Shown here: in pieces, positions 17,504 to 46,680 of the stretch
Layout: each line of letters opens with the position of its first letter
Numbering within the stretch: position 1 is the stretch's first letter
Source: Oehlia diaphana
Taxonomy: Eukaryota > Glomeromycota > Glomeromycetes > Glomerales > Glomeraceae
DNA length: 64,000 bases
Assembly: GCA_003833135.1 (NCBI GenBank)
Contig: QZLH01000015.1
Location: forward strand, 23,081-87,080
Direction of reading: 5' to 3'
The notes under the pieces: generated by a model
Told to the model about the DNA's origin: nothing
What the model saw: the letters and a program-made list of their open reading frames with translations, nothing else
Databases searched by the model: none
Program-made: the position numbers and the translations under genes

Positions 17504-19005
17504 ATGGCTACGCAATTTTTACCTCACTTGTCGCAAGACTTTACAAATCTTTTAGAAAGTAAAAAAAAACATGATGTTATAATTAAAGTTGATAAAAGTA
17601 ATAATGAGAAAACATTTTGCGTGCATTCAATTATTCTTGAAACGAGATCCGTTTATTTTGAAAACGTCTTTTCTAATAAACAATCTAGAAAAGAGAATAA
17701 TATTTTTATTTTAGAATTTCCTGATCTTTCCTCTGATATATTCAATATTTTAATCAGGTAATATACGAAATAATTCAATCATACATATTAATTAAATTAT
17801 TTATACACAATTAGTAATAAATATCTTTTTTAATAAGGTATATCTACGGTGGTATTATTAATCTTGATAATAAGAAAGCTTCTGATATTTTGAATCTTTT
17901 AACAGCTTGTGGAACATTCAAGCTTAAAGAATTATATGATTACGTTCAACAAAATCTAATTGAACACCATCACGATTGGCTCTTTCAAAATCTTTTTTTA
18001 GTTCAAAAAATCAGTTTTAAAAATTCTGATTTCACCAAATTACAAAATTATTGGACAACAACTATTTGCAAGCAACCTGAAATTCTATTCAATGCTACCG
18101 ATTTTACATCTGTAGATAAAGAAGCATTATTGTCGATTTGTAAAGAAGAAAATTCGTGCATGGAAGAAAATGAATTATGGGATCATATCATTCGTTGGGG
18201 TAAAGCTCAAAACACTGAATTATCAGAAGAAATTAATAACTGGACACCAAGTGACTTTAATGCTTTAAAGAAATCTTTAGAAGATTTTATACCTTATATT
18301 AGATTTTATGATTTCTCATCTGATGATTTTTGTTTCAAAATAACGCCTTATAGCGGAATTTTTCCTAATGATTTGTATCAGGATCTTTTAAAATATAATT
18401 TAGTATCGGATTGGCAACCAAAATTCAATAATCTTATATCAAGAAAAGCAATTTTGAATATTCCTAATATAACTATTGATTCTAAATTAATTAATGGTGA
18501 ACAGGCGGCATTAATTTCCTCATGGATTCAAGGAAATAATGAAAGCGAAATATCAAATAAATTTAGAAAAATCTATTATGAATTTAAATTACTTACACGT
18601 GGAAGTCGAGATGGATTTACAGGATCAATATTTCATAAAATGTGCGATAACAAAGGTCCCACAATTACTGTTATAAGATTAAAAGATGAAACGTCAATTC
18701 TTGGAGGTTACAATCCAATTAATTGGGATATTAATAAAGGTGAAAAATATGAAAAAATTACAGATAGTTTTATCTTCAATATTGATAATAAAGAAATAAT
18801 TTTATCTAGAATTCAAAATTATGACAATGCAATAAATCAATATGGTGGTGGACCAAATTTTAATGATTTACAATTAACTTGGACTTTTAATGTAGATAAT
18901 GGTGCTACATATAACAAAAAAGCATATAATAAAAAAATACATAATGAAGGAAGTTTTATCGTTAGTGAGTATGAAGTTTTTGGTATAACCAGAAAACGGC
19001 AGTAA
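17504..19005 (+). CDS. BTB-BACK-TLDc protein, two exons
   Basis: Exons 17504-17757 and 17838-19005 give 473 aa, joined at AG|GTAATA...AAG|GTATAT in phase 2. BTB: FLPHLSQDFTNLLES, DVIIKVDKSNN, FCVHSIILETRSVYF, YIYGGIINL. BACK at about 130-235: KLQNYWTTTICKQPEILF, LSICKEENSCMEENELWDH. TLDc from about 300: RGSRDGFTGSIFHKMCDNKG, SILGGYNPINW, DSFIFNI, VSEYEVFGI. It belongs to the same subfamily as the tandem cluster at 39980-48680 (shared FLPxLSxDxxxLLE start and FHKMCDNKGPTIT signature), although it sits 22 kb away. Its likely role is as an adaptor for cullin-3 with a TLDc module; the substrate is unknown. Confidence 0.92.
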
Positions 19006-34601: not shown

Positions 34602-35001
34602 TTAATAAAGTTATATAGAACCTTAATTGATTTTTTTGTTGATTCGAAATTAATATTAATGACCATTGGAACGTCCAATTTAATACTATGGTCTCACAAC
34701 GGTAGTCCATTTTTAGATTATGATTGTAAATCGTAAATTTTGACACAGCACAGTATGCACAGTAAAAATTTTGTACACTTAGTAACATCTATAATGAATA
34801 ATCAAACTCCGTGTGTTACTCCATTCTTGTTATTTTCTTTCTAAATCAGTTGAAAGTTTGAAATACGAATAATGTTGTCTAACTGAACTACCGGAGTTGA
34901 ATGCGTCTTTTGTTGACCTTAATTTAGCCAATATTTCATTCATATTTATAAAGCATAATTTTTCCCAGATTATTTATTATTCATACTTTTTGTTCATTAC
35001 A
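34602..35001. other. Intergenic, 5' flank of the Sel1 gene
   Basis: AT-rich. The plus-strand frame of the Sel1 gene is open back to about 34897, but without an ATG before 35002. Confidence 0.4.
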
Positions 35002-37173
35002 ATGTTATCAAATTCTAAATTAACTTTCTTGGACGTTAAAGAATTCTCAAAAGATTTTTATCAAAATATTCTTAAAATCATTGAAACAAATGATTTTAAT
35101 ACGTTTGAAAATAATTTAATCGAATGGATAAATAGTTTTATCATGGATACTAAAATGATTTTGGAATTAATGCAAAATCATGAAGAATATGAATTTTGGT
35201 TTTCAAGTATAATTGGTTTCTTTTATCAACATGGTATAGGTTGTAATGTTGATAAAAATAAAGCATTAGAATTATATTTATTAATAATTAATAATAATCA
35301 TCGTAATGATGATGATTATAACGATGACAACAATAATGATGAATTTATTATTTTAAAAAATATTAATTATAATATTGGAAAATATTTATTATCAACTTTT
35401 TATTATAAAGATATTATTTTGGATGATATACATTTTAGAAACGCGCCTGATTTTATAATTAAATATTTAAAACTTGCTAGAAGAAATGATTCAACGGCTC
35501 AATGTAATTTAGGTCATTGTTATGAATATGGTGAAGGAGTAACAAAAGATTTTAATAAAGCATTTGAATGGTATACTAAATCAGCTAATAATAAAAATGC
35601 TTTAGGTCAACATAATTTAGGAAATTGTCATTATTATGGAAGAGGAACAACATTAGATTTTAAGAAAGCACTTAATTGGTATTGTAAATCGGCTATTAAT
35701 GGAAATTCTGAAAGTCAATATAATATAGGAGAATTCTTTTACTATGGAAAAGGATTAAAACAAAGTTATAAAAAAGCATATGGATGGTATTTTAAATCAG
35801 CTAATAATGGACATGCTTTAGGTCAATATAAATTAGGAAATTGCCATGAAAATGGTAAAGGTACTGAACAAGATTATAATATGGCATTTGAATGGTATTC
35901 TAAATCAGCTAATAATGGAAATTCTGAAGGTCAAAATAATTTGGGTTATTGTTATAGAGATGGTAAAGGTGTAGAACAAGATTACAAGAAAGCGTTTGAA
36001 TGGTTTGATCAATCTGCTAATAATGGATGTGCTAAAGGTCAAAATAATTTAGGAGAATGCTATTATTATGGAATTGGAATAGAACAAGATTATGAGAAAG
36101 CATTTGAATGGTATTCTAAATCTGCAAATAATGGAGATGCTAAAGGACAAAATAATATGGGTCATTGTTATGAGTATGGTGAAGGAGTAGCACAAAATTT
36201 TAATAAAGCATTTGAATTGTATTCTAAATCAGTAGCCAATAATGAATGTGCTGAAGGTCAAAATAATTTAGGAAATTGTTATTATTATGGAAAGGGAATA
36301 AAACAAGATTATAAAAAAGCAGTTGAATGGTATTCTAAATCAGCTAATAATGGATGTGCTGAAGGTCAATATTCTTTAGGTACTTGTTATACACATGGTA
36401 AAGGAGTTAAAAAAAAATATGAAACAGCATTTCTATGGTTCTCTAAATCGGCTATGAGTGGATATTCCAAAAGTCAATATCATTTAGCAGATTGTTATTA
36501 TTATGGAAGAGGAGTATTACGAGATTATATAAAAGCATTTAATTATTATTATGAATTAGCTAATAATGGACATGCTTTAAGTCAAAATAAATTAGGTACT
36601 TGTTATGAACATGGTAAAGGAGTGAAACAAGATTATAATATGGCATTTGAATGGTATTCTAAATCAGCTAATAATGGGTGTGTTGAAGGTCAAAATAATT
36701 TAGCACTTTGTTATGAAAATGGAATTGGAATAGATAAAGATTATGGTAAAGCATTTGAATTGTATTTTAAAGCAACCAATAATGGATATATTATTGCCCG
36801 AAGTAATTTAGGTCGTTGTTACGAGAAAGGGTTCGGAACTGATAAAAATTATATGCGAGCATTTGAATTATATAATAAGTCAGCTAATGAAGGATGTTCT
36901 AAAGGTCAAAATGATTTAGGGAATTGTTATTTTTATGGAAAGGGAATAACAAAAGATTATAAAAAAGCATTTGAATTATATAAAAGATCAGCCAATAATG
37001 GGTTTGCTTTAGGCCAAAATAATTTAGGTGTTTGTTATGAGAAAGGATTTGGAACTCGTAAAGATTACCACGAAGCGTTTAAATGGTATTCCAAATCAGC
37101 TAATAATGAATGTGATGAAGGTAAAAAAAATTTAAAATTCCTACTATTATGGTATCATAAAGTAAGTATATAA
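35002..37173 (+). CDS. Sel1-repeat scaffold protein with about 15 repeats, single exon
   Basis: The 723-aa product starts MLSNSKLTFLDVKEF at the first ATG of the frame; this start is supported by the paralogue at 1-433. After an N-terminal segment with one degenerate unit (IGFFYQHGIGCNVDKNKALE) and an Asn/Asp-rich spacer, about 15 tandem 36-residue Sel1 units begin near residue 165, of the form GQNNLGxCYxxGxGxxxDYxKAFEWYSKSANNG. Sel1/TPR-like arrays form a superhelix that binds partner proteins. In fungi such proteins include activators of chitin synthase and ERAD components, but this one has no signal peptide, membrane segment or kinase domain. The array extends almost to the C-terminus, leaving a short tail (LKFLLLWYHKVSI). 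High DNA similarity among repeats suggests ongoing unit turnover. Confidence 0.93.
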   Translation: MLSNSKLTFLDVKEFSKDFYQNILKIIETNDFNTFENNLIEWINSFIMDTKMILELMQNHEEYEFWFSSIIGFFYQHGIGCNVDKNKALELYLLIINNNHRNDDDYNDDNNNDEFIILKNINYNIGKYLLSTFYYKDIILDDIHFRNAPDFIIKYLKLARRNDSTAQCNLGHCYEYGEGVTKDFNKAFEWYTKSANNKNALGQHNLGNCHYYGRGTTLDFKKALNWYCKSAINGNSESQYNIGEFFYYGKGLKQSYKKAYGWYFKSANNGHALGQYKLGNCHENGKGTEQDYNMAFEWYSKSANNGNSEGQNNLGYCYRDGKGVEQDYKKAFEWFDQSANNGCAKGQNNLGECYYYGIGIEQDYEKAFEWYSKSANNGDAKGQNNMGHCYEYGEGVAQNFNKAFELYSKSVANNECAEGQNNLGNCYYYGKGIKQDYKKAVEWYSKSANNGCAEGQYSLGTCYTHGKGVKKKYETAFLWFSKSAMSGYSKSQYHLADCYYYGRGVLRDYIKAFNYYYELANNGHALSQNKLGTCYEHGKGVKQDYNMAFEWYSKSANNGCVEGQNNLALCYENGIGIDKDYGKAFELYFKATNNGYIIARSNLGRCYEKGFGTDKNYMRAFELYNKSANEGCSKGQNDLGNCYFYGKGITKDYKKAFELYKRSANNGFALGQNNLGVCYEKGFGTRKDYHEAFKWYSKSANNECDEGKKNLKFLLLWYHKVSI

Positions 37174-37976: not shown

Positions 37977-39256
37977 TATACACCGATGCTTCCCACCCTC
38001 CCCAAGGCATCGGCAGTTATTCATTTGATACATGTCATGGCTTGGCATCAGTTTATAAAAGATTTGCCGTTGCATTTTATGATAATCTTTTACTGTTGTT
38101 GCGGCAATAATATGCCAAATAAGTATTAGTTTATAATTCACGATATATATTTACACGTGCAATCTAAATCTAATCTGTAATTCTATTAACTTCCAAAACA
38201 ATACATTCTCTAAAGCAGAGAAACCTGATATAATGGTCCATATATATATTTTTAATATGATCATAATAAATAACCTTTAAATTATTTTAAATCTTGTTAA
38301 TGAATTATAGTAGTTTTTTTTTTATTAAACGAACAAACAAATGAGCAATAAAAGAGATAATTCATGTGATCATAGAATATTAGAAGTTTCTTACTTACCC
38401 TTTTACTGTTATAGTGATTTAAAAATTCTATATCCGGCATACATGATGCTACCTGTTTTGTTCATATTTGTATATATTATGAAATATATTATGTCATATT
38501 GTCATTATAAGGCGTGCGGACATGTCCGCTATTGGATAGGGTTACCCAATAACTAATTGGGAACCAAGTTTATATGATCTTGTACCAAGGTAAACACATA
38601 TTTTGCGAAAGAATCAAATTAATAAGACCAAAATTCGTTGGGAATTTAACCTCTTTATATATAAAGCATCATCATTTACATATAAAAACTAATTAAAATA
38701 AAGAAATGAGAAAAATCGTACTTTTGTGTGTGTAAACTATACAAAAACAAAGTAAGTAATAGTATTTCCAGAAAGTAAATTGTATTAAGATTATCATAAA
38801 AACATTTGGAAACATATGACAAAATGAATTTTTTAATAAAGACTAATAAGTTATTAACTTCTATATAAGTTTAAACAATAACCTAATTTGTTCAATTTAT
38901 CCAAAGAAATTCTTATTGGAAATTTGAAACAATACAGTCGCCCTTAGATCACAGCCAATTTTGGTAATTTATTCCCATACATTAAATTACCATAAGGTAA
39001 TTTTCCGTGGCACATTATTCTAACCAAAAATGTCCTATTCATTTATAGGTTCTCTGTTGTACTATTCTATAAGCTTACCAATTTTACTTTCGGCTGGAAA
39101 TAAGTCTATCTTTTTTAATAAAAACAAATAGATTTTTTTATTTATTTTATGGTTTTTATGGTTGCAATCGTGTATCCCATGAAATAGCAGGCGTATTAAA
39201 ACTTGAACAGAACAAGATTTATGTAAACTTTAAATTCATTCTCCGTAAAAAAGAAT
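37977..39256. other. Intergenic
   Basis: Includes a CACGTG at 38154-38159. A 71-codon frame at 38341-38556 (+) has one hydrophobic stretch but no family resemblance, so it is left uncalled. CAGTCGCCCTTAGATC near 38936 resembles a solo pogo-type end. Confidence 0.4.
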
Positions 39257-39299
39257 TTTCTCTCCTGAAATTTTTTTTTTTTTTTTAAAAAAAAAAAAA

Positions 39300-39342
<43 letters not shown>

Positions 39343-39346
39343 AAAA
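39257..39346 (+). promoter_or_regulatory. Promoter-like poly(T)/poly(A) block at the left edge of the assembly gap
   Basis: TTTTCTCTCCTGAAA followed by T18 and then long A runs is almost the same as the block directly before the BTB-TLDc start at 39980 (TTTTTTCTCTGAAA, T16, A14). By analogy it should precede a BTB-TLDc ATG, which would lie inside the gap. Confidence 0.5.
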
Positions 39347-39783
39347 NNNNNNNNNNNNNNNNNNNNNNNNNNNNNNNNNNNNNNNNNNNNNNNNNNNNNN
39401 NNNNNNNNNNNNNNNNNNNNNNNNNNNNNNNNNNNNNNNNNNNNNNNNNNNNNNNNNNNNNNNNNNNNNNNNNNNNNNNNNNNNNNNNNNNNNNNNNNNN
39501 NNNNNNNNNNNNNNNNNNNNNNNNNNNNNNNNNNNNNNNNNNNNNNNNNNNNNNNNNNNNNNNNNNNNNNNNNNNNNNNNNNNNNNNNNNNNNNNNNNNN
39601 NNNNNNNNNNNNNNNNNNNNNNNNNNNNNNNNNNNNNNNNNNNNNNNNNNNNNNNNNNNNNNNNNNNNNNNNNNNNNNNNNNNNNNNNNNNNNNNNNNNN
39701 NNNNNNNNNNNNNNNNNNNNNNNNNNNNNNNNNNNNNNNNNNNNNNNNNNNNNNNNNNNNNNNNNNNNNNNNNNNNNNNNNNN
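39347..39783. other. Assembly gap (437 N)
   Basis: Run of N between a promoter-like homopolymer block and a sequence identical to the 3' flank of the next BTB-TLDc gene. Its stated length is probably arbitrary. Context suggests it replaces a tandem gene copy of about 1.6 kb. Confidence 0.95.
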
Positions 39784-39897
39784 GTTACTAGTTACATCAC
39801 ATAAGTTTTGCATCTCCAATCCTCTAATCGCTACTAATTTAGGAAATAAAAAATGTACTTAAATATAAAAAATTTAACGCTAAAAAAAAAAAAAAAA
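39784..39897 (+). repeat. Direct repeat, copy 1 of a BTB-TLDc 3' flank
   Basis: From the first base after the gap, about 100 bp (GTTACTAGTTACATCACATA to TTAACGCT plus an A run) are identical to 41656-41770, which lies just downstream of the BTB-TLDc gene at 39980-41507. The left extent is hidden by the gap. Confidence 0.9.
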
Positions 39898-39979
39898 ATT
39901 TTTTCTCTGAAATTTTTTTTTTTTTTTTAAAAAAAAAAAAAAGTGAAAAAAGAGTGAAAAAAAAAGAAAAAAAATAAAA
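39898..39979 (+). promoter_or_regulatory. Poly(T)-poly(A) block directly before a BTB-TLDc start
   Basis: T16 followed by A14 and GTGAAAAAAGAGTGAAAA leads straight into the ATG at 39980. Comparable blocks precede the ATGs at 45489 and 46888. Poly(dA:dT) tracts disfavour nucleosomes and often mark fungal promoters; their use here is inferred. Confidence 0.45.
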
Positions 39980-41507
39980 ATGACCACACAATTTTTACCA
40001 TATTTGTCGCAAGACATGACTAAACTTTTGGAAAATAAAAAGAATTATGATCTTATAATTAATGTTGATAAAGAGAACAATAAAAAAGAATTTTGTGTGC
40101 ATTCAATTATTCTTGAAACGAGATCTTCTTATTTTGAACATGCTTTTTCTAATGGATTTGCAAAGAAAGAAAATAATACTTATATTTTGGATTTTCCCGA
40201 TATATCTGTTAATGCGTTCAATATTCTGATTAGGTAAATACAAAAATTAAATAATTGTTTTAAAATTTTTTTTTAGTATCGTTAAAATTGAGGCAAAAAA
40301 AAAAAAAAATTTTTTTTTTTTTAGGTATGCTTATGGTGGTGTCATAAATCTTGATAATAGAGAGGCTTCAGATATTATGAATCTTTTAATTGCTTGTGAA
40401 AAATTCAAACTTAAAGAATTATATGATTATATTCAGGATTATCTTATCATACATCACCCGACTTGGCTTTTTCAAAATCTTCTTTTAATTCAACAAATCG
40501 GTTTTAAACATCCTGAATTTATTAAATTACAAAATTATTGGACAGCAACAATTTGTGAACAACCAGAAATTTTATTCAATTCTGCCGATTTTATATCTGT
40601 TGATAAAAAAGCGTTATTATCTCTTTATAAAAATGAAACTTTATGCATGGAAGAAAATGAATTATGGGATTATATTATTCTTTGGGGGAAAGCTCAAAAT
40701 CCTGAATTACCTGAAAAAATTTCTAATTGGACATCAAATGAATTTAATATTTTAAAGAAAACTATCGATGAATTTATACCTCATATTAGATTTTATGAAA
40801 TCCCTTCTGATGATTTTTGTTTCAATATTATGCCTTATGGTTCAATGATTTGTAATGATTTATATCAAGATCTTTCCCGATATCATTTGGTATCAAATTG
40901 GCAACCAAAATTTAATAGTCTTAAATCAAGAAAAATAAATTTAAATCTTTCTAATATACCTATCGATTCTAAACTGATTAATGGTGAACAAGCAGCATTG
41001 ATTTCTTCTTGGATTCAAGGAAATAATGAAAGCAAAATATCAAAAAAGTATAATAAGGCTAATCATGAATTTCAATTACTTGCTCGTGGAAGTCGTGATG
41101 GATTTACGGGTGCATCATTTCATAAAATGTGTGATAACAAAGGTCCCACAATTACAATTATAAAATTAAAGGGTGAACCTTCAATTCTTGGAGGTTATAA
41201 TCCTATTAATTGGGAAATTAATAAACATGGGAATTATGAAAAAACTTCAGATAGTTTTATTTTTAGTTTAGATAAAGAAATAACTTTGTCTAGAGTTCAA
41301 AATTATGATAATGCTATATTTCAAAATAAAAATGGTCCTAATTTTAATGATTTAACGTTAAGGGGAACTTTTAATTCAACGAATGGTGTTTATTATGCTA
41401 AATATATTTATGATCAAAAGATACATGCTAAAGGATATTTTATTGCAGATGAATATGAAGTTTTCAGCATTATTACAAGGAAAAAGAAAATAATTAAATC
41501 GTTGTAG
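39980..41507 (+). CDS. BTB-BACK-TLDc protein, tandem cluster member 1
   Basis: Exons 39980-40233 and 40325-41507 give 478 aa with the shared phase-2 intron (AG|GTAAAT...TTAG|GTATGC). The intron itself holds an A14/T12 homopolymer hairpin. BTB: FLPYLSQDMTKLLENKKNYD, FCVHSIILETRSSYFEHAF, YAYGGVINL. BACK: NYWTATICEQPEILF, LSLYKNETLCMEENELWDY. TLDc: RGSRDGFTGASFHKMCDNKG, SILGGYNPINW, DSFIFSL, ADEYEVFSI. All domains look complete. It lies directly after the assembly gap and is bracketed by identical repeats at 39784 and 41656, which marks it as part of a recent tandem duplication. It is closest to the gene at 46888-48680. Confidence 0.92.
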
Positions 41508-41655
41508 GAGAATAAATATATATTTTTTTTTTAGTATTTAGATTAGTTAATTTTATATAAATTTATATATATATATTAAAAAATAAAAAAAAATAAAACG
41601 TGTTTATACATTTATTGCAACAAAGACGCAAACTTATGACTTAATTATGACATAT

Positions 41656-41770
41656 GTTACTAGTTACATCACATAAGTTTTGCATCTCCAATCCTCTAAT
41701 CGCTACTAATTTAGGAAATAAAAAATGTACTTAAATATAAAAAATTTAACGCTAAAAAAAAAAAAAAAAA
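41656..41770 (+). repeat. Direct repeat, copy 2 (3' flank of cluster member 1)
   Basis: Identical partner of 39784-39897, located about 150 bp after the stop codon at 41507. The period between copies is 1872 bp, the size of one gene unit. Confidence 0.9.
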
Positions 41771-41929: not shown

Positions 41930-43170
41930 CAAATATGTATATTCAATTTATTCTTGAAGTGAAGTCCTCCTGCTTTGTAAAATGTTTTCTCTGATGGATT
42001 AGTAAGGAAAGAAAATAAATTTTTATCTTGGATTTTCCTGATACATTTGCTGTTAATATATCAAAATTTTAATTAGGTAATATATTATTTAAATTTTTAA
42101 CATAGAAAATTTATTTATATTAATGCAAGTTTCGTTTTATCTAGATATATTTATGGTGTGGTATCATCGATCTTGATTATGTAGAAGCTGCAGACATTTA
42201 ATGTATATGTGTACATATATGAGAATTAGACAATTAAACAACTCTTGTTTAAAGAATTTTACGTTCAAGAACATCATCATATTGGACATCATCAATCTTG
42301 GATCTTTCGAAATTTTGCCTTTAATTCAATCATTTAGTTTTAAAATACTTTGAAATCACCACATTACAAAATTATTAGACAACCTTCATTCTATCATTTA
42401 TAGGGAGCCTGAATCTTTTTTTTTTTTTTTAGGATTTCTAATTCAGTCGGAAAGTTGGCTGAAGGGTTCAGGAGGGTTAGGAAGCTAGCTCGACACATTT
42501 AAAGGTTGGACGGTTAAACTCAAGCGAAGCACCAACAATCACCTAACAGGCAGGTCCAACCGGCCGACCCACTATCATTATAACCTAACATTAAAGTCAC
42601 TTAAACAGGAGCCTGAATCATTTATTTAATGTTACTATTTTATATTCGTTGGGCAATTGATCACGTGATAGAATCAGAATTCGTTAGGGTAAAGCTCAAG
42701 ATTCCGAAAAAAGAACTAATCGGACAACAAATAACTATACTAGATGATTTCATGCCTCACAATATGAAGATTCTTGTTACAAGATTATGCCTTACGATGT
42801 AATTCTTTTAACGATTTATAATTTGGAAACCAAAATTCAAAAATCGAAAAGCAAATTAAAACTTCTTTCTAATACTACTTTTGATCACAATTTTTTTCCT
42901 CTCGGATCAAGGAAGCAATGAAGCAAAGGAAGAAAAAGAAGAAAAGAAAACAGAGTATCAAATAGATTTGAAAAAATATGTTATGGATTTCAATTACTTG
43001 CTCGTATCTTCGTGGAAGTTGCGATGATTAAATTAGTATAAGTGTATGGTTCATAAAATGTGTGTTTATAAATATAAGACTTATCATTTTAATTAGATTA
43101 ACATTAATTTGGGAATTAGAAATTATGAATAAATTTTGGATAGAGTTTATTTTAAAACAAAGAATACATC
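41930..43170 (+). pseudogene. BTB-BACK-TLDc pseudogene, tandem cluster member 2, split by a retroposon
   Basis: Recognisable pieces appear in gene order but in changing frames: ATTCTTGAAGTGAAGTCCTC (BTB core), GATGGATTAGTAAGGAAAG, the BTB exon end ATTAGGTAATA with an intron similar to that of the 45489 gene, ATATATTTATGG at exon 2, ATCAATCTTGGATC (BACK), GGTAAAGCTCAAGATTC (WGKAQ), AAGATTATGCCTTACGATG (KIMPY), CAATTACTTGCTCG (TLDc QLLAR) and TTCATAAAATGTG (FHKMC). Many indels and stops exclude a working product. Nucleotide similarity across exon and intron makes the 45489 copy its sister. The 192-bp insertion at 42416-42607 interrupts the codons that read QPEILFN in relatives. The start codon region is not recognisable. 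Confidence 0.85.
42416..42607 (-). mobile_element. SINE-like retroposon inserted in the BTB-TLDc pseudogene
   Basis: GGAGCCTGAATC stands at 42404-42415 and again at 42608-42619, a 12-bp target duplication. The insert starts with a T15 run, so on the minus strand it ends in poly(A) as a retroposon should. The body is GC-richer than the surroundings (GGTCGGCCGGTTGGACC). The host sequence resumes in register after the second copy of the duplication, so the insertion is exact. Clear Pol III boxes were not identified. Confidence 0.8.
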
Positions 43171-45488: not shown

Positions 45489-46426
45489 ATGTCTACACAT
45501 TTTTTATCGCAAGATTTAATAAAACTTTTAGAAAGTAAACGAAACTATGATTTTGTAATTAATATTGATAAAGAAGACAACAAAAGAGAATTTTATGCAC
45601 ATTCAATTATTCTTGAAGTGAGGTCCTCTTATTTCGAAGACGTTCTCTCTAATGGATTAGTAAGAAAAGAAAATAATATCTTTATTGTGGATTTTCCTGA
45701 TATATCTGTTAATGCGTTCAAAATTCTAATTAGGTAATAAATTATTTAAAATTTAACACGGAGAAATTTATTCTATAATCATATTAATGCAAATTTTATT
45801 TATTTAGATATATTTATGGTGGTACCATCTATCTTGATCATGTAGAAGCTGCAGATGTTTTGAATCTTCTATTTGCTTGTGAAAAACTCAAGCTTTATGA
45901 ATTATATGATTATGTTCAAGATTCTTTTATTAAACATCATGAATCTTGGATCTTCCAAAATTTTGTTTTAATTCAACAACTCAGTTCCAAATATTCTGAT
46001 TTCACCAAATTACAAAATTATTTGACAACGACTGTTTGTGAGCAGCCTGAAATTTTATTTGGTGCTAATAATTTTACATCTATAGGTAAAGAAGCATTAT
46101 TATCCATTTGTAAAGATGAAAATTTGTGCATAGAAGAAAATGAATTATGGGATCATCTCATTCGTTGGGGTAAAGCTCAAAACGCTGAATTAGATGAAGA
46201 AATTAATAACTGGACAAATAATGATTTTGATATCTTAAAAAAATCTTTAGAAGATTTTCTACCTCTTATAAGATTTTATGAAATCTCATCTGAAGATTTT
46301 TGTTTTAAAATTATGCCTTATAGTTTAATTCTCTCTAATGAATTATTTCAAGATCTTTCAAAATTTCATTTAGTTTCAAATTGGAAACCAAAATTTAATA
46401 ATCTTGTACCAAGAAAAGTAAATTAA
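45489..46426 (+). CDS. Truncated BTB-BACK protein lacking TLDc, tandem cluster member 3
   Basis: Exons 45489-45733 and 45808-46426 give 287 aa. The conserved phase-2 intron is intact (AG|GTAATA...TTAG|ATATAT). BTB (FYAHSIILEVRSSYFEDVL, YIYGGTIYL) and BACK (NYLTTTVCEQPEILF, CIEENELWDHLIRWGKAQ, KIMPYSLILSNELF) are complete, and the frame ends at PRKVN and a stop exactly where relatives continue toward TLDc. Beyond the stop, decayed TLDc-encoding sequence is still visible to about 46570. The protein could still bind cullin through BTB-BACK and act as a competitor of full-length paralogues, or the locus may be an early pseudogene. The N-terminus lacks the three-residue LPY segment of its relatives. 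Confidence 0.8.
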
Positions 46427-46680
46427 AATCTTTCTAATGTTACTATTGATTACGTTTATTTCTTGAATTTTAAAAAAACAAAGAAAACAAAGAATAGATT
46501 TAAAAAATGTATCATTGATTTCAAAGCCGTGATTAGGGGATTTGCTGCTGTGGCGTCCATAAAATAATCATAGAATTTATTATGAGATGAAGTGATTAAC
46601 ATAACAATTAATAAAATAATTTTTTTTTGTACTAAGATTATGGTAAAAATTTTCAGCAAATGTAACACATCATGCAAAAA
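46427..46680 (+). pseudogene. Decayed TLDc-encoding 3' remainder of cluster member 3
   Basis: CTTTCTAATGTTACTATTGA corresponds to the LSNxxID segment of relatives. AATAGATTTAAAAAATGTAT followed by GATTTCAAAGCCGTGATTAG and GGATTTGCTG corresponds to the region before and at RGSRDGF. TCCATAAAATAA corresponds to FHKM. Frame and several blocks are lost, then similarity ends. Confidence 0.6.

Follow-up and report, generated by a model that had tools for sequence, protein, structure and literature searches.

The right-hand contig at an assembly gap in the DNA studied here opens with a head-to-tail junction. Judged from sequence, this speaks for a young duplication in tandem; the unit is 1872 bp long and includes a BTB-TLDc gene. 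We see an even chance that the gap hides a gene-sized and near-identical copy of that unit, as a collapsed tandem duplication. Note that the weight given to this reading is a matter of judgement, as are the weights attached below to a false gap, a truncated copy, and the remaining explanations. The window, by which we mean the whole 64-kb stretch analysed, is C15:23081-87080 of a 108.8-Mb assembly of 1672 contigs. It contains a single N run, of 437 bases. Features of the locus, in window coordinates, are listed below.

39247..39346, + strand: left gap edge, a T16/A14 block and then a long A tract (39265-39300 = 39907-39942; pattern match)
39347..39783, no strand: N run of 437 bases, assembly gap (sequence)
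39784..39898, + strand: right edge of the gap, where the flank 3' of the visible gene recurs exactly (115/115 identical to 41656-41770)
39899..39906, + strand: TTTTTTCT at the head-to-tail junction (continues the 3' flank save for one extra base there)
39907..39942, + strand: block CTGAAA-T16-A14 upstream of the gene, matching the left-edge block (36 bp exact)
39980..40233, + strand: first exon of the visible BTB-TLDc gene, encoding most of BTB (splice sites read from sequence)
40234..40324, + strand: predicted 91-bp intron (the spliced frame fits P0001 gap-free)
40325..41507, + strand: exon 2, with the remaining BTB, a weak BACK match, TLDc and the stop (domain matches)
41656..41770, + strand: flank 3' of the visible gene, where the 115-bp repeat occurs again (identity to 39784-39898)
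41941..43005, + strand: decayed head-to-tail relative of the visible gene (four blastn pieces, 67-96%; repeat families D5 and D6)

The first landmark lies to the right of the gap. Starting at the first base past the N run, 39784-39898 matches 41656-41770 at 115/115 positions; a preliminary description of this DNA had reported about 100. The downstream flank copy has one extra base, and similarity of the upstream copy continues through a T run to 39906. Both 115-bp copies are inside one contig, with no N between them. The second landmark is the T/A block. Here, 39247-39334, at the left gap edge, aligns with 39890-39980, before the gene, and the exact part of the alignment is only 36 bp long (39265-39300 and 39907-39942). 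These blocks had been called almost identical. The description holds for the 36 bp and overstates the last ~45 bp, where the A-rich tracts differ: at the left edge, over 40 A are interrupted by a single T and a single C, and the gene side reads GTGAAAAAAGAGTG. The repeated ends of a gap on a different contig, C31, likewise differ in their A/T tract and, hence, we give this mismatch little weight. The T run of the left block, previously put at 18, is 16. Immediately 5' of the exact 36 bp, before CTGAAAT, one block has TTTTCTCTC and the other TTTTTTCT. Since a duplication junction predicts that the two blocks mismatch upstream, this difference is as expected. The landmark spacings described at the outset hold; the 3'-flank copies are 1872 bp apart, and the block copies 642 bp. 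The head-to-tail junction itself is present in assembled sequence; 39784-39906 matches the 3' flank, with one indel, and 39907-39942 matches the left-edge block.

The flanking landmarks are locus-specific and not dispersed. A DNA search of the 108.8-Mb assembly, by a method that passes over very common words, found two matches for the 196-bp 3' flank, both at the gap locus. Similarly, the block pattern, allowing 0-3 free bases, had two genome matches, again both at this locus and with starts 645 bp apart. The reversed control of the pattern had one match. Hence, for such a low-complexity block, position is informative and the genome-wide count is not. A dispersed repeat, or family-wide promoter, was ruled out because both landmarks were found only at the gap locus. 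We also surveyed stretches of C1, C15, and C31, with 227,391 non-N bases in total, for exact repeats of at least 80 bp within 20 kb, excluding low-complexity words. Five were found: three straddle other N runs, one is the repeat at our gap, and one is at C15:16932. The 115-bp repeat is rare. By chance, one of the surveyed intra-contig repeats would end 5 bp or less from a gap edge with a probability of roughly 0.6%, and the contig break is thus probably due to the repeat. As a separate observation, the repeat at C15:16932-17020 and 18670-18758 is an 89-bp exact direct repeat, with an offset of 1738, in one contig and with no N between copies. It is possibly another young local duplication.

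We favour the following sequence of events. The 1872-bp unit, consisting of the T/A block, BTB-TLDc gene, and 3' flank, would have been duplicated head to tail very recently. The left contig would stop ~82 bp into the upstream copy, within the long A tract. The right contig would start 115-123 bp before the end of the upstream copy, cross the junction, and contain the entire downstream copy. Short reads of both copies would have collapsed onto the visible gene, so that ~1667 bp would be absent from the assembly at the place now filled by 437 N. Tandem arrays do collapse into fewer copies in assemblies, according to the accessible text of PMC7757076. We infer that the upstream copy still holds a gene and is nearly identical. 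The latter had also been the initial claim. It is drawn from the 115-bp flank, for which divergence is at most ~2.6% at 95%, and from the 36-bp low-complexity block; the gene body in the gap is unseen. No near-identical copy of the visible gene was found elsewhere in the assembly, the nearest paralogue being 80% identical over exon 2 plus flank among 40 of 145 candidates scored. On this basis, we rejected a hidden copy on another contig. Note that no contig with the missing copy was found, and that a collapsed copy would not give one anyway.

The original case for a hidden gene also drew on the length of the N run. We surveyed twenty 10-kb stretches, and these contained seven other interior N runs (354, 379, 379, 396, 782, 3528, and 4179), leaving out two runs at contig starts and one cut run in locus L020. 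Among the five shorter than 1 kb, four are of an overlap type, with 354-396 N. In these, the last bases of the left contig appear again where the right contig begins or close by, over 104, 177, and 239 bp exactly, and over ~113 bp with one indel on C31. The exact cases are all on C1 (L038 1761-2347, L039 9154-9903, and L042 1401-2257; 379-396 N). The C31 case, at 177.0-177.6 kb (L034 7002-7628; 354 N), has repeated flanks and a long T/A tract, and is just upstream of the closest off-contig paralogue. The overlap extends to both contig ends at three of the four gaps, and the fourth has a 46-base A/T-rich overhang. Three of the four sit in genes. The 782 and 4179 N runs have no contig-end repeat, and the 3528 run is within a tandem-repeat tract.

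What lies beneath the overlap-type runs can be judged at three of them. Two paralogues without gaps (57.2-59.0 and 82.0-83.7 kb, ~68-71% identical) read uninterrupted across the places where the C1 runs at 49.3 and 71.6 kb stand, and contig ends overlap in paralogue coordinates. At the run at 31.9 kb, coding points are 77 bp apart if the contigs are joined, giving an intron of ~73 bp, compared to 560 bp as scaffolded. Hence, gap-free paralogues for two runs, and intron geometry for one, make all three look spurious, with nothing missing. Separately, C1:48.8-83.7 kb (L039-L043) has at least four local paralogues, 68-95% alike in their 5' part, with what reads by eye as a signal-peptide-like start.

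At the overlap-type gaps, N plus overlap is 483-618 (mean 547). Calibrated on these four, a run of 437 N stands for contigs that are really -181 to -46 bp apart, about -110. An intact hidden unit would give a gap of 1667 bp, which is 1230 more than written. With inserts of 3-5 kb, a hidden unit would give a mean gap estimate of 1174-1590, and it fits 437 only if inserts are no longer than ~1.75 kb. Runs of 3.5-4.2 kb elsewhere hint at long inserts, and those runs may not be assembly gaps. Another assembly, of R. diaphanus, was built with SPAdes and SSPACE, according to the portion of PMC6281316 available. A single-copy locus, in which both blocks are the same DNA, predicts 278-413 N, and so does a collapsed duplication with all left-flank links on the visible copy. 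Either the links landed on the collapsed copy, or there is no gene-sized loss and the contig edge is chimeric. After this survey, N length was rejected as a measure of missing sequence. The preliminary description was right to distrust it, since runs of 379-396 N stand where contigs overlap. Its further step, from landmark spacing to a wrong N length, may lead to a correct conclusion but is no demonstration of what is absent; the error observed in this assembly runs the opposite way. Its collapsed gene-sized unit retains the locus-specific landmarks in head-to-tail order; the 437 N are no evidence for a loss of 1.2 kb and, with long-insert links, would count against it. We conclude that the observation stands, on slightly firmer ground than first described, and that the hidden-copy explanation is plausible, although partly argued from a length that is worthless as a measure here.

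The same survey bears on whether the gap is simply false. In that case, there would be a single gene, both blocks would be the same DNA, and the contigs would overlap unmerged. The 115-bp overhang would then be chimeric, joining 3' flank to 5' block via A/T runs. The prevalence of overlap-type gaps, three of which look spurious, fits this explanation. The block offset of 642 is near the 483-618 of overlap-type gaps, and the predicted N length is near the 437 observed. However, the 115-bp overhang is complex in sequence and does not align to the left contig; elsewhere there is none, or 46 A/T-rich bases. Furthermore, the blocks already diverge just 5' of the exact 36 bp, and an assembler would presumably need reads spanning the junction. 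The end of the left contig is not repeated as the start of the right contig: the T/A block alone is common to both, and its exact 36 bp are 123 bp inside the right contig. We therefore consider a false gap possible but doubtful. Real duplication is favoured because the complex overhang does not fit the left contig and the junction is clean, unlike at other gaps. It is also favoured because the 115-bp pair is within one contig. As Kelley and Salzberg state in the accessible part of PMC2864568, intra-contig duplications are rarely misassembled single-copy sequence, since the read overlap graph needs an unambiguous path. A gap between duplicated pairs is listed as a mark of false duplication in the text seen of PMC9516828; this mark fits the block pair and not the 115-bp pair.

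A real duplication need not have left a gene in the gap. The upstream gene body could have been lost, leaving the A-rich tract nearly next to the 3' flank, with little or no gap between them. A truncated copy of this kind agrees with a real junction and with a calibrated distance near zero, and a decayed family member adjoins the visible gene. Conversely, it requires that a duplication so young has already undergone a further event, and no deletion is visible in the sequence. We think it unlikely. Pieces of the decayed member, at 41941-43005, match ~1840, 1957, and 1918 bp downstream of the corresponding gene positions. Other relatives of the visible gene are at window 17.5, 45.5, and 46.9 kb, with more distant ones at 8.8, 14, and 52 kb, and the array reaches C15:126.7 kb (155 kb examined). 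Unequal exchange in this array would be the most likely source of the 1.87-kb head-to-tail copy. Returning to duplication with a collapsed copy, support comes from 115/115 identity starting at the gap edge, landmarks found only at the locus, the array setting, and a decayed neighbour of similar period. Against a hidden unit stand the negative calibrated distance, the mismatched A tracts, and a reversed control with one match where the block pattern has two.

The remaining explanations are that duplication is confined to some nuclei or to circular DNA, or that the N run is no assembly gap. For R. diaphanus MUCL 43196, the part of PMC6281316 available describes a single MAT locus and allele frequencies of homokaryotic pattern, which argues against the first. 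The run stops exactly at a repeat edge, like an assembler break, and this argues against the last. Together, we regard these explanations as very improbable.

Two further features of the window were apparent. A gene of the same family at 45489-46450 has BTB and BACK, and its match to the visible protein stops at residue 299, before most of TLDc; it is probably truncated. The open frame at 34873-37173, of 766 aa, repeats at the DNA level with a period of 108 bp, and we take it to resemble Sel1 repeats.

The visible gene is a member of a hugely expanded BTB-TLDc family. Its spliced product has 478 residues, 468 of which (98%) are shared with P0001 (RhiirC2_844952, from R. irregularis C2) in a gap-free alignment. 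Matches to BTB (2.9e-15; 56.8 bits) and TLDc (1.6e-16; 61.1 bits) are both over cut-off. BACK is below the Pfam cut-off (18.4 bits compared to 20.9; E 0.0024) in this protein, and passes it in window genes at 45.8, 8.8, and 52.3 kb. Structure-sequence matches number 13, all to the BTB-BACK part (KBTBD4, ZBTB7A, KLHL26, a fly BTB protein, and BCL6). Presumably, the protein is a BTB adaptor for a Cullin-3 ligase that carries a TLDc module. At least 150 TLDc matches are present in the genome; 150 of 678 candidates were scored, and all 150 listed are over cut-off. The size of the P0001 cluster (12 members) was set aside, since more than one isolate could be represented in it. C1646_661811 of Rhizophagus diaphanus agrees at 473/473 positions with the protein spliced from window 17504-19005, which makes R. 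diaphanus, or an isolate very near it, the source of this DNA. In R. irregularis, BTB, Sel1, and Kelch genes are high-copy, strain-specific families, in the available text of PMC8647823. Oxr1p, a TLDc protein, disassembles V-ATPase, as stated in the accessible portion of PMC11094088.

If the favoured reading is true, one more copy is added to a very large family. Gene counts for this family, among the most expanded in mycorrhizal fungi, would be lower bounds, with the youngest duplicates missed. The gap could also hide several near-identical head-to-tail copies, the product of a species-specific and very recent BTB-TLDc amplification missed by short-read Rhizophagus assemblies. We consider this distinctly unlikely; BTB-TLDc copy numbers would then be undercounted in such assemblies. 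Our literature searches, of incomplete coverage, found no paper joining at least three of Rhizophagus, TLD, BTB, and tandem duplication. The survey also carries a warning about this assembly. Sampled N runs of 354-396 mark overlapping contigs, create false second exon or intron pieces, and hold no information on missing sequence.

Compared to the BTB-BACK-TLDc family of arbuscular mycorrhizal fungi, the visible gene is alike in domain order, in membership of a local array, and in having a 98% relative. It differs in that its own BACK match is under the Pfam cut-off. The locus resembles collapsed tandem duplications of short-read assemblies in having repeat ends on both sides of a gap, in head-to-tail order, with the break inside the repeat. 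Such cases are established by read depth and spanning reads; ours is proposed from assembled sequence. Finally, as with the duplicated overlapping contigs of PMC2864568, in the text available, the gap is flanked on each side by similar sequence, a feature of four other gaps of this assembly. The difference is that the longer repeat here occurs twice inside the right contig, and is not common to the left and right ends.
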